IMG/VR virus record: IMGVR_UViG_3300047472_000056
Span: 1-28,744 of that record
From: a virus
DNA length: 28,744 nucleotides
Direction: 5' to 3' (one strand)
Made by a program: the position numbers and the translations under genes. Under the pieces are notes generated by a model, which was not told the origin of the DNA, did no database searches, and saw only the letters and a program-made list of their open reading frames with translations. Of this stretch, positions 1 to 19,000 are shown piece after piece. Each line of letters opens with the position of its first letter. The first letter of the stretch is position 1.

Positions 1-1048
1 GAGACTCGGCAGCTTCAAGCACATTCATAATTTTATGGGTAATATCAGAATTACGAGACTTACCAAATTGACCTAATGCTTTAGGCATCAGATGTTCGGT
101 ATGTGTGAGTAATGTATTTGCTTCTACTACATGATGCTCTTCAATACTAGTTGCAAAGTGAGATGCAGATACTACAAGACACAACTTCAAGAGATGCGTG
201 AATCTTCTGTTACTATAGGATACAAACCTAGCATCATCAATAGGTTTATACGTAGTATAAATTTTTGCTAACAGGTCTCTAGCTTTGGGACTAAGTTTTG
301 CTTGGCCACGTGAAGTCAGTTTTATTCTTTGCAGCTGACTAGTAATAGTGCTAGTGGCTTCTATTGTGGGGATAACAGGAAACGGAATCTTCTTGCCAGT
401 ATTTTCCCCATATACCAGTAGTAGCCTTGAAAAGAATCCTTGGCCCAAAGTATCTGGAGGAAATGCATTAGCAAAGCTAACAGGGGTATTGCCACCTAAG
501 ATGTTAATCGTAGGGTTACGCACAGTAATTGATTTACTATTCTTAGTTCTGTGTTTATAATCTCCTGCGAAATCCCACATTGTTCCAAGAAGCGAAATAA
601 ACTCTAAGTTACCGAGTCCGATGAAATCATTAAACTCATCACAGGCAATATACATTTCTGCATCTAAGCCATCGCCTGCATCTTTTCCCCACAGGTTTTG
701 ATCAAGTATATCATCAATGGACTTACCACTACCTTCAGATTCCTCTCCCGCCAAGTCCATAATAAACTTTTCTTTACTAGACCTGTCAGCACTAATAGTA
801 GTATATCCTGCACCTATGAGAATTTTCTTGGCTAATTTAATTGCAGTACTCTTCCTAGTTCCCGGATCACCAATAAGCATTACATACAAATTGGGAAATA
901 ACTCCGAGTGTCCAAAGGGCAAAGAATACTGTCTCCCTAAGTAGGCACCCACCGCACTTAACATGCTCCAACGGTGGTAGAAGATTGGAGCCTCGGTGTC
1001 ACCTACATACTGGAGATATTGTTGGATGAAGCCATCTCCGTGCTCCAT
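1..1048 (-). CDS. P-loop replicative helicase/ATPase (DUF3987-like), C-terminus outside window
   Basis: Read on the minus strand from ATG 1048, this frame is open for 349 residues and runs off the window edge, so the C-terminus is missing. Seen: a Walker A motif GDPGTRKST at about residues 60-68, a Walker B-like stretch IACDEFND at about 134-141, and a sensor-like INILGGNTP near 181-189 followed by GFFSRLLL with a possible arginine finger. This layout matches phage ATPases usually labelled DUF3987 or helicase, which are thought to act at the replication fork. The family call is from memory of the motifs. The start is forced: an in-frame TAA, the stop of the upstream gene, lies one codon before the ATG. 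It sits 3 bases downstream of the 119-residue gene and is the last visible gene of the polymerase operon. A primase-helicase role is inferred. Confidence 0.8.
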   Translation of the reverse strand, partial: MEHGDGFIQQYLQYVGDTEAPIFYHRWSMLSAVGAYLGRQYSLPFGHSELFPNLYVMLIGDPGTRKSTAIKLAKKILIGAGYTTISADRSSKEKFIMDLAGEESEGSGKSIDDILDQNLWGKDAGDGLDAEMYIACDEFNDFIGLGNLEFISLLGTMWDFAGDYKHRTKNSKSITVRNPTINILGGNTPVSFANAFPPDTLGQGFFSRLLLVYGENTGKKIPFPVIPTIEATSTITSQLQRIKLTSRGQAKLSPKARDLLAKIYTTYKPIDDARFVSYSNRRFTHLLKLCLVVSASHFATSIEEHHVVEANTLLTHTEHLMPKALGQFGKSRNSDITHKIMNVLEAAES

Positions 1049-9698: not shown

Positions 9699-10574
9699 TT
9701 AAGCCAGTGCAGCAAGCAGATTGGTTTCATCCGTATTCAACAGCTTTTCCAGCTTCTGTTGCAGGAACTCGATGCAAGGAGTGAGAGTTTCACCTTGCGC
9801 AGTGTTCTGAGCGTAGATAGCCAGCTGACCTTCCAACAGTTTAAGAACAGGCTTGTTGGTAACGGCGCCAGCAAACTTATTCTGGAAGACTTTAGCTGCC
9901 ATCTCAACAGCCTCTTTCTTCTTACCAGTAAGGCCCGGCATGATTTCCACGTAGTCTTTCGCAAAGTCTTCCCACAGTTCTTTGCTGATACCACCGCCAC
10001 GACGTTCTGCTTTCGGCAGGTTAGCAATCTTAACCCACGACAGATTCTCGTACGGGAAGTTATTAGCGTTTGCTTCTTCATGCTCGTTAATCCAGTCACG
10101 AGCTTGCTCAACAACTACGCCACCAACAGCTTCCAGCAACAGATCCAGTTGCTTCTGATCGCCAGATTCCAGAATAGCGATAATACCTTCAACGCTAGGA
10201 GTAGGAACAGGAATGGTAACAGTCGGGCGCTTGGTTTCTACCTTGCTGACAGAACCATCAGGATTCTTAACTTCGTTGGTAACTTTGCGGAAGTAGAAGT
10301 TGGTTTCCTTAATGTCCACAAGGTTGTTAAACTTGGCTTTGATACCTTCAATACGAGCAGCTTTTTGCTCATCAGTTTCTGCTTTGGATTCGTTGCTTGC
10401 GTTAGCAGCATTGGTATCATCGGAAGCAGTAGGAGTACCAGCTGCGGCATTAGCAGCATTAGCGATGCCAGCATCACCACCATTACCACCAGTAGCTTCA
10501 GGATTAGCTTGCTGATACAGACCAGTAGCCAGAGCAGCGATAGCCAGCATTGCGAAACGATTAGTACGGATCAT
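9699..10574 (-). CDS. Phage protein of unknown function with own promoter and terminator, 291 aa
   Basis: The N-terminus has a short hydrophobic stretch (RFAMLAIAALATGLY), then about 55 residues rich in Ala, Asn, Gly and Thr that look disordered. A folded acidic domain of about 220 residues follows (KFNNLVDIKETNFYFRKV, VPTPSVEGIIAILESGDQKQLDLLLEAV, ARDWINEHEE). I recall homologues as conserved hypothetical proteins in other phages, without a proven role. It forms a single-gene transcription unit with a near-consensus sigma-70 promoter (10681-10709) and a terminator (9636-9673), which suggests high early expression. Its codons are more C/G-ending than those of the neighbouring small genes, resembling the major capsid gene, again consistent with strong expression. 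The hydrophobic start could be a signal or membrane segment, but it is short. Confidence 0.9.
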   Translation of the reverse strand: MIRTNRFAMLAIAALATGLYQQANPEATGGNGGDAGIANAANAAAGTPTASDDTNAANASNESKAETDEQKAARIEGIKAKFNNLVDIKETNFYFRKVTNEVKNPDGSVSKVETKRPTVTIPVPTPSVEGIIAILESGDQKQLDLLLEAVGGVVVEQARDWINEHEEANANNFPYENLSWVKIANLPKAERRGGGISKELWEDFAKDYVEIMPGLTGKKKEAVEMAAKVFQNKFAGAVTNKPVLKLLEGQLAIYAQNTAQGETLTPCIEFLQQKLEKLLNTDETNLLAALA

Positions 10575-17576: not shown

Positions 17577-17636
17577 TTTATTTCTCCAATGCGTAATTAT
17601 AACTATCTCAATTAATCGGGTTTTCGGCAAAATGCC

Positions 17637-17666
17637 ATTTTACCATTTTTCCAATTTTCCAGTCAA
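17637..17666 (-). promoter_or_regulatory. Sigma-70 promoter at the left edge of the repeats
   Basis: On the minus strand TTGACT (17666-17661) and TAAAAT (17642-17637) are 18 bases apart. The spacer and -10 are made of the left 8-bp repeat units, so a protein bound to the repeats would occlude the promoter. The predicted start is near 17630, about 54 bases before ATG 17576. Confidence 0.65.
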
Positions 17667-17914
17667 CCCCTCCCCTTCCTGCCTGCCGAATCCATTTTGG
17701 TCATGTGAGTTACTAACTATCCTATTCCAGCTATTATAACTACCTATCTATCTGTTCTCTGTATCTCTATCTACCTGTCTTAGGGTCTATTTTTAGGGGT
17801 ACTTTAAAATTGAAAATTAAAATACATTATATAATAACTAAAAATAGATGATAGATAGAAGATAGTAAGAATAATAGAGAAGAGATAGATAGTAAGTTAG
17901 TAGGTCAAAATGGA

Positions 17915-17946
17915 AATCGAGGACAGGAATCCCCCCCCCCTCGATT
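17915..17946. repeat. Poly-C hairpin between the GATA tract and the iterons
   Basis: AATCGAGG (17915-17922) is perfectly complementary to CCTCGATT (17939-17946). The loop contains most of a run of ten C residues (17931-17940), the longest homopolymer I see in the window. Confidence 0.6.
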
Positions 17947-17992
17947 GGAAAATTGGTGAATTGGTGAATTGGTGAATTGGCAAAATGGTGAA

Positions 17993-18124
17993 TTACCGAT
18001 TTTCCGAATTGCCAATTTGGTGAATTGACTGTGACATAATTAACTTATAAATGCAAATAGCAGCAATAACAGTAACTGCAATAAGAACTGAAAACTGGAA
18101 TGCAAATGAATCTAAATAATTCAT
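17993..18124 (-). CDS. Small single-pass membrane protein, 43 aa
   Basis: Reading frame of 43 codons from ATG 18124 to TAA 17993. The protein has a short N-terminus (MNYLDSFAFQ), one clear membrane helix (FSVLIAVTVIAAICIYKLI, about residues 11-29) and a polar tail (SQSIHQIGNSENR). The Shine-Dalgarno AGGA lies 8 bases before the ATG. The last ten codons are made of the 8-bp iterons, so gene and origin-like repeats overlap. It sits just downstream of the tandem terminators. Candidate roles are a holin-like, superinfection-exclusion or membrane-anchoring peptide; none is proven. Confidence 0.6.
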   Translation of the reverse strand: MNYLDSFAFQFSVLIAVTVIAAICIYKLIMSQSIHQIGNSENR

Positions 18125-18168: not shown

Positions 18169-18223
18169 AAAATGCGCCTGACAGCTAGCACCAGATGCTT
18201 CCTGGAGCCAACTAGCAGACGCA
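18169..18223 (-). terminator. Second of two tandem terminators after the 225-aa gene
   Basis: On the minus strand TGCGTCTGCTAG (18223-18212) pairs with CTAGCTGTCAGGCGCA (18188-18173), with a small bulge and one G-U pair. It is followed by TTTTGTATTTC. It comes directly after the first terminator. Confidence 0.55.
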
Positions 18224-18274
18224 AAAGGCATCTAGCTAGAAGAATCCATTCACGGACTCAACTAACTAGATGCC
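18223..18274 (-). terminator. First of two tandem terminators after the 225-aa gene
   Basis: On the minus strand GGCATCTAGTTAG (18274-18262) pairs with CTAGCTAGATGCC (18239-18227), 13 positions with one G-U, and is followed by TTTTGC. It lies about 50 bases beyond the stop at 18323, with the inverted-repeat arm in between. Confidence 0.7.
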
Positions 18275-18280
18275 TCTAGG

Positions 18281-18320
18281 GTAGGTTGATAGTTCTCAGC
18301 TATGTGAGAGAGTTATTGCA
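18281..18320. repeat. Long inverted repeat, left arm
   Basis: TAGGTTGATAGTTCTC at 18282-18297 is the exact reverse complement of 19097-19112. Beyond it CTATG and GAGAGAGT continue the match with short bulges, giving about 32 paired positions over 37 bases. The arm lies between the stop of the 225-residue gene and its terminators. Confidence 0.8.
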
Positions 18321-18322
18321 AT

Positions 18323-19000
18323 TTACAACAGAGCCAGCAAATCAGCACCAGCTTCAGCTTCAGCAATCATCTTATTCAAGCGAGTAGTGAAGCGAGTTGC
18401 AAGCACATCTCCGGCAGGTGCAAGAGCCAGAGCATTTACAAGGCTCTTACATACTTTCGGTTCAAAGCTAGTCTTGCCGCCTGCAAGCGATGCAACTTTG
18501 CTCTTGAAGGCTTCCACTACTGCGAGAATCTTAGCACTCTCTGCATCGGTAGGAACTTCAGAGACACCGAGCTTTTCAGCCAGCGTGACAGTCAGCTGAT
18601 CAGAGATAGTTTCATCAAACCAGCTTGCTACAACTTCCTTGGTGAGACGGCCACTCTCAGAGTTACTTTCGAGCCATTCAATACATGCTGCAATACTGAT
18701 CTCTTGCATGCTGATGCTAGTAGCTCCTGCATCCACACGCTCACGCACAATCTTGTCTTGTACGCTATGCAGGTACTCCACTACTGCCGGAGCCAAGGAA
18801 GCAATGTTAGCTACAACATCGGCAACTTGCACCAGTGGTAGCGAGACACACTTGCTATCTCGCTTGATGCCGTAGAACTCAGAGTTCTTGTCAGTGATAG
18901 TTTTATAAGTGACCTTGGACAGTCGCTGACCCGTGAAAGCTTTGGTGCTCTTCGGATCGTAGGAAACAACAGAGTGATTCAGGTTATCAATAACGGACAT
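18323..19000 (-). CDS. Phage protein of unknown function, 225 aa, in its own transcription unit
   Basis: Soluble, acidic, largely helical protein. The N-terminus reads SVIDNLNHSVVSYDPKSTKA and the middle is Ala/Val-rich (LVQVADVVANIASLAPAVVEYLH). It continues through EISIAACIEWLESNSE and KILAVVEAFKSKVASLAGG to a helical C-terminus ending EAEAGADLLALL. I do not recognise a named family and see no catalytic motif. It is the first leftward gene after the divergent control region, with an AGGAG ribosome site 8 bases before its ATG, tandem terminators, and complementary sequences in its 5' and 3' untranslated regions. Codon choice is richer in GC-ending codons than in the following small genes. 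These traits fit a strongly expressed early protein, perhaps involved in host takeover; that role is inferred. Confidence 0.88.
   Translation of the reverse strand: MSVIDNLNHSVVSYDPKSTKAFTGQRLSKVTYKTITDKNSEFYGIKRDSKCVSLPLVQVADVVANIASLAPAVVEYLHSVQDKIVRERVDAGATSISMQEISIAACIEWLESNSESGRLTKEVVASWFDETISDQLTVTLAEKLGVSEVPTDAESAKILAVVEAFKSKVASLAGGKTSFEPKVCKSLVNALALAPAGDVLATRFTTRLNKMIAEAEAGADLLALL

Follow-up and report, generated by a model that had tools for sequence, protein, structure and literature searches.

Does the non-coding element of about 400 bases at 17621-18030, in which short inverted repeat arrays surround AT-rich DNA, serve as the replication origin of the podophage that carries it, as an earlier note made from the sequence had proposed? 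The window (the whole stretch of DNA analysed, 28,744 bases) is a linear IMG/VR contig of an uncultured phage that encodes a DNA polymerase A, a Sak4-like annealing protein, a Dda-like helicase, an exonuclease and a DUF3987 helicase, while the opposite strand carries the small and large terminase genes (terS, TerL) followed by late genes. The nearest cultured phages, all of them distant, are Pseudomonas PaP2/119X/PaMx41 (Fredfastierviridae), Polaromonas Tiera, Aeromonas P5 and EBPR podovirus 3, with identities of 29-38% in TerL and 37-41% in the helicase. Since TerL is about 31% and the Dda-like helicase about 40% identical to those of PaP2-like phages, which is not close, the contig phage is, judged by its proteins, only a distant relative of the Fredfastierviridae, with a similar gene order around the element. 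Comparison of the element region with GenBank phages by blastn gave no match, plasmid records gave distant TerL matches only, and Rfam and tRNA scans of the window found nothing. Relatives were drawn from 77 IMG/VR loci encoding TerL or helicase relatives, of which L032 and L053 are the complete-length contigs closest to the window phage (many proteins at about 70-85%).

Read in the direction of the early genes, the element consists of an 8-bp-period array, a G/C run, a pyrimidine tract, an AT-rich core, a purine tract, a G run, the box TTGACT-N18-TAAAAT and an inverted 8-bp array (Table 1). The repeats described in the earlier note are present: its array of five exact 8-bp units plus variants lies at 17944-18027, with many units degenerate, and the inverse-type units that it placed at 17635-17658 form a CCATTTTT-type period-8 array at 17635-17661. 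Exactly five copies of GGTGAATT occur in the window, all within 17955-18026, compared to a mean of 0.83 and a maximum of 3 in dinucleotide shuffles. The two outer arrays are mutually inverted, with arms at 17622-17664 and 17943-17985 that are 72% complementary and, within them, 17635-17655 and 17944-17964 at 86%. The mirrored CTAT and GATA tracts were also recovered (17737-17776 and 17860-17899, 75%), as was the AT-rich centre with the core; the softest 60 bp of the window also fall inside the element. At 17786-17796 and 17838-17848 lie the perfect 11-bp arms, TCTATTTTTAG and CTAAAAATAGA, but no conservation of them was seen in relatives, which do keep the arrays, the tracts, the AT core and the TTGAC box. 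With a long-range dyad score of 30, the element is the strongest dyad in the window (next best, 15-16); when 17580-18060 is folded as single-stranded DNA, it falls 6.8 sd below its dinucleotide shuffles. No second copy of the element was found in the window.

Table 1. Features of the element, its neighbours and the DUF3987 gene, in positions of the window.
Feature	Position	Strand	Remarks
DUF3987 AAA+ helicase	2..1048	-	3' end lost at contig end; candidate initiator/helicase
Small ORF, 60 aa	17394..17576	-	immediately downstream of the promoter
Outer array B	17621..17661		inverted period-8 units; overlaps promoter spacer and -10
Candidate sigma-70-like early promoter	17637..17666	-	TTGACT 17666-17661, 18-nt spacer, TAAAAT 17642-17637; consensus match
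CCCCTCCCCTTCCTGCCTGCCGAA	17667..17690		G run and GGCAGGCAGG on the early strand; kept in L032 and L053
CTATC tract	17713..17782		pyrimidine-rich (+ strand)
AT-rich core	17783..17848		has GGTCTATTTTTAGGGGTACTTTAAAAT, which the two closest relatives keep almost unchanged; candidate unwinding element
Softest 60 bp of window	17817..17876		nearest-neighbour sum -57.7; next best elsewhere -61.5
GATAG tract	17849..17903		purine-rich (+ strand); inverted mate of 17713-17782
C run (10 C)	17931..17941		between array A and the purine-rich tract; most relatives have G/C runs here
Outer array A	17944..18027		period-8 units: ATTGGTGA/GGTGAATT, five exact, and variants ATTGGCAA, AATGGTGA, ATTACCGA, TTTCCGAA; period 8/16
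225-aa ORF	18323..19000	-	constant neighbour of the element in relatives; first early gene

The earlier note had suggested a search for the same arrangement in related phages, and the layout was found in place in about 40 diverged relatives. L032 and L053 have the full series of parts at the same place with the core, TTTTTAGGGGTACTTTAA, nearly unchanged, and their 8-bp units differ: ATTGGTGA in the window, TTGACATT/TTGGCATT in L032 and TTTGCCAG/TTTGGTGA in L053. More distant relatives, whose 225-aa ORF is 23-41% identical, show array, G/C run, pyrimidine tract, core, purine tract, G run, TTGAC and inverted array in the same order, often with TTTAAA and ACCCC in the AT-rich core. Elements were located by TTGAC anchoring together with a dyad scan, as centring by the pyrimidine/purine switch alone misplaced many loci. 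The strongest long-range dyad of the locus fell in the element region in 37 of 41 relatives, the region being defined as just downstream of the 225-aa ORF or, where that ORF was unassigned, within 2.6 kb of terS. In each of the six complete-length relatives examined, the element has the top-scoring dyad of the whole genome. In one relative (L029/L003) the flanking gene is present and the dyad scan found no such dyad, and in eight loci TTGAC was absent from the searched span. The corresponding place in PaMx41/PaP2/FBPa48 and Tiera holds an AT-rich, repeat-bearing intergenic region with weaker dyads (14-17), that of PaMx41 only equalling the best dyad elsewhere; the examined record stretches of PaP2-like phages and Tiera annotate no origin. 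The element is real and family-wide. The earlier note had named a loss of the repeats beside conserved flanking genes as a point against an origin; beside those genes the layout is conserved and the sequence of the repeats is not. Searched across IMG/VR, the pattern GTACCCCTAAAAATAGACC matched only the close relative L053/L106, and three exact GGTGAATT units gave a single match, in L003. That short array was set aside as a weak or coincidental counterpart, as its neighbour is a different small ORF and no dyad accompanies it; the intergenic stretches concerned (L003:3800-3830 and L003:4343-4395) hold the three units together with ACATCTC, a tandem repeat of 7 bp. The corresponding intergenic region of Tiera includes two copies of a direct repeat about 71 bp long (OQ067478, 43930-44072).

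Although the units change from phage to phage, the two arrays of one phage change together. In 35 TTGAC-anchored phages, whose anchors were picked by promoter match so that some centres may be wrong, the left flank scored a mean of 18.9 against the reverse complement of the phage's own right flank and 11.2 against the right flanks of other phages, and the largest of 10,000 shuffled means was 14.4. The phage's own right flank outscored all others in only 16 of the 35, because phages of one unit family also match one another. These families include TGCCAGAA, CTAGACCG/CTGTCAGA, TTGACAGA, TTAACCAA, AATTCACC, AATGCCTC and the 6-bp ATGATT. A period of 8 was the best lag in 17 of 29 elements and stands out in the mean (37.1 vs 27-30), while the repeats of the Pseudomonas phages (Fredfastierviridae) are about 10 bp. 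Unit similarity did not follow TerL similarity (rho about 0). Comparing protein divergence with unit class for the 225-aa ORF, its paralogue, the helicases, TerL and others revealed no convincing covariation; the only sign of it, a weak one, came from the Dda-like helicase (rho 0.31, p 0.015, one of ten tests), and the C-terminus of the DUF3987 helicase showed none (rho 0.01). We suggest, tentatively and with more doubt than belief, that the fixed layout (8-bp period, two inverted arrays, soft core, promoter) carries a repeat spelling that is swapped between phages independently of phylogeny, a private origin code whose two arms array conversion or a rapidly switching binding protein would keep in step. 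If real, such codes would prevent relatives or satellites in a shared infection from triggering one another's origins. A kept layout with changing spelling also makes a natural experiment on joint change of initiator and origin.

One array is also placed where it could affect transcription. The earlier note made no mention of a promoter-like box overlapping the right array; as a consensus match, a putative sigma-70-like promoter points towards the early genes, with array B lying over it. In the anchored set, TTGAC and a -10-like hexamer lie at the same relative place, beside the G/C run and at the start or edge of the right array. A single such match means little, because 3.5 are expected by chance in shuffles of the same 1.1 kb region, and it is the constant position that carries the argument. 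The 225-aa ORF next to the element matched nothing in Pfam, PHROG or the PDB, and its predicted fold (pLDDT 86, pTM 0.51) had no significant PDB or viral match. Iterated profile searches across relatives joined it in one family with a 291-aa ORF downstream of the helicase (9699-10574, minus strand), an apparent paralogue, and this family matched no known family or fold. For the 60-aa ORF, no homologue was found in relatives. More repeats occur in the non-coding DNA between the 225-aa ORF and array A (18182-18290), along with an imperfect inverted repeat of 29 nt (18219-18247/18254-18282).

An easily melted AT-rich stretch is a common property of these elements. In the 29 anchored elements, the softest 60 bp between the arrays always lay within the softest 1% of the locus and was the softest of the locus in most, and the element holds the softest 60 bp of the genome in four of the six complete-length relatives, as it does in the window. 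Cumulative GC and AT skew, a check proposed in the earlier note, changes near the element in complete-length relatives, with detrended extremes that scatter. Skew is not independent evidence of an origin, because gene direction switches 1-2 kb from the element and four-fold-degenerate sites show no switch at it; as proof of an origin it was rejected as confounded. The origin proposed in the earlier note thus keeps its anatomy, which is real and held in place across diverged relatives, and gains no independent support from skew. We put the probability at roughly 60% that the element is the replication origin of a podophage lineage, with an embedded early promoter and a layout like that of the origins of SaPIs and PICIs.

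Part of the same evidence would be expected if the element controlled early transcription only, its arrays serving as operators for a repressor or activator that loops over the AT-rich spacer to govern the TTGAC promoter while replication starts elsewhere. The constant position of the box under one array, the switching of units between phages as operators switch between immunity types, and the location of the element between the first early gene and the other early genes all fit this account, which we nevertheless consider unlikely. It leaves unexplained why the spacer holds the softest DNA of the locus or genome and why the pyrimidine and purine tracts are symmetrical; no repressor-like gene was found beside the element, the neighbouring ORFs tested giving no HTH family match; and AT-rich DNA often yields sigma-70-like matches by chance. 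Alternatively, the inverted arrays may act by base pairing, as a cruciform or a long hairpin in single-stranded DNA or RNA (for example a strand-initiation or structural site), rather than as protein-binding iterons. Single-strand DNA folding in 19 of 20 elements (z -2.2 to -9.4, controls near 0; 25-66 pairs spanning more than 250 nt) and the retention of complementarity within each phage while the sequence turns over are consistent with pairing. A single protein reading both arrays, or conversion between the arrays, would leave the same pattern. Complementarity in the window is imperfect (72-86%), the arrays are offset, and arms about 300 bp apart are expected to pair slowly in duplex DNA; we regard this explanation as improbable.

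A packaging (pac) or genome-end site is suggested by the PaMx41 and PaP2 records, which start inside the corresponding intergenic region, and by the nearness of terS. However, the same-genus records 20Aug470 and FBPa48 start elsewhere and are contiguous through the region, the contigs of the complete IMG/VR relatives end at other, unrelated positions (in four of the six the ends overlap over a short stretch, of 127, 69, 127 and 144 bases), and terS in the window is about 2 kb from the element with other genes between; such a function is very improbable. Strongly disfavoured, finally, is a mobile foldback or MITE-like insertion or neutral low-complexity DNA, to which simple repeats, imperfect terminal inversion and short tandem arrays elsewhere in relatives might point, but for which neither the shared synteny and conserved part order in about 40 diverged phages nor the single copy in the window would be expected.

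For the replication origin that we favour, PICI origins provide the closest precedent, as they 'always' consist of two iteron sets flanking an AT-rich region (PMC6092414), and SaPI Rep is a self-loading helicase whose C-terminal domain recognises the iterons, apparently as two hexamers (PMC7581432). The element too has two iteron sets flanking a putative AT-rich melting region, in sequence a close match in layout, and the C-terminal origin-binding domain of SaPI Rep has a possible parallel in the C-terminal winged helix modelled in full-length homologues of the phage MCM-like helicase. In contrast, the SaPI origin lies immediately 3' of rep, whereas the DUF3987 gene (2-1048) is remote from the element (17621-18030); SaPIbov1 Rep contains DUF927 and SaPI5 Rep D5/Primase_Cterm rather than DUF3987; and the phage element has a promoter-like box inside one of its arrays as well as conserved pyrimidine/purine tracts and G/C runs, and is carried by a full podophage. 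In iteron plasmids of the RK2, R6K and pSC101 type, the origin combines direct repeats with an adjacent AT-rich unwinding element, and an autoregulated promoter is often present; these iterons usually share one orientation and are longer, at about 17-22 bp. No Rep of these families was found among the ORFs tested. The type I repeats of phage P4 are octamers resembling GGTGAACA, and P4 has two separate cis regions. Short repeats and a winged helix in the replication protein liken P4 ori/crr to the system proposed here, as the P4 repeats are bound by the winged helix of the multifunctional protein alpha (PMC4234260); alpha differs in carrying a bacterial-type primase domain. Closer in synteny, the intergenic region of the Fredfastierviridae (PaP2, PaMx41, FBPa48) and Tiera lies likewise between the terS side and the early genes and has an AT-rich core and mirrored repeats, differing in its weaker dyad and, in the Pseudomonas phages, its longer repeats; the core of the latter carries ACCCCC. 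The PaP2-like phage Shea reportedly persists as an episome (PMC13348215), which makes extrachromosomal replication plausible in distant kin. The element would offer a concrete, testable origin for widespread uncultured podophages and their cultured kin (PaP2-like phages, Tiera), and would set a phage MCM-like helicase alongside a SaPI-like origin layout.

The earlier note had recognised no initiator gene, and the DUF3987 AAA+ helicase is a plausible candidate. Its product matches DUF3987 with E 6.7e-13 and the PHROG family phrog_14296, labelled 'DNA primase', and longer homologues from 24 relatives have 411-445 aa. An AlphaFold2 model of the L032 protein (pLDDT 84, pTM 0.79) matches MCM helicases (Foldseek E about 1e-8; VIA Z 20.0, rmsd 3.3 over 269 residues with 6mii_B), and its residues 332-390 run helix-helix-helix-strand-strand, as in a winged helix; SaPI Rep was not among the structural matches listed. 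Full-length homologues are accordingly predicted to be MCM-like with a C-terminal winged helix, and the structural model makes an initiator role plausible. Its link to the arrays is inferred, and against it the gene lies about 16.6 kb from the element and is far from it in relatives too; the DUF3987 protein is a candidate array binder. Initiation might begin when a phage protein binds the two arrays, possibly in the form of two oligomers turned towards the core, whereupon the AT-rich core between them would melt, the MCM-like helicase would be loaded, or load itself like SaPI Rep, in both directions, and the phage A-family polymerase would extend. As one array covers the putative sigma-70-like early promoter, array binding may also lower early transcription, and copy number would then be coupled to early expression. 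The phrog_14296 family (2-1048 on the minus strand of the window; L113-L136) models as an MCM-like helicase in which no primase domain was seen, and a phage primase is not evident; the A-family polymerase and its neighbouring small ORF recall PolA-SSB primases (PMC10061031). A scan of genome contigs with the DUF3987 family gave seven matches on MAG contigs, which were uninformative on the host. One 119-kb MAG contig, PBMU01000004.1 (L141, L142, L143), carries the DUF3987 helicase three times at a spacing of about 45.6 kb, as if a phage genome stood head-to-tail in the assembly.
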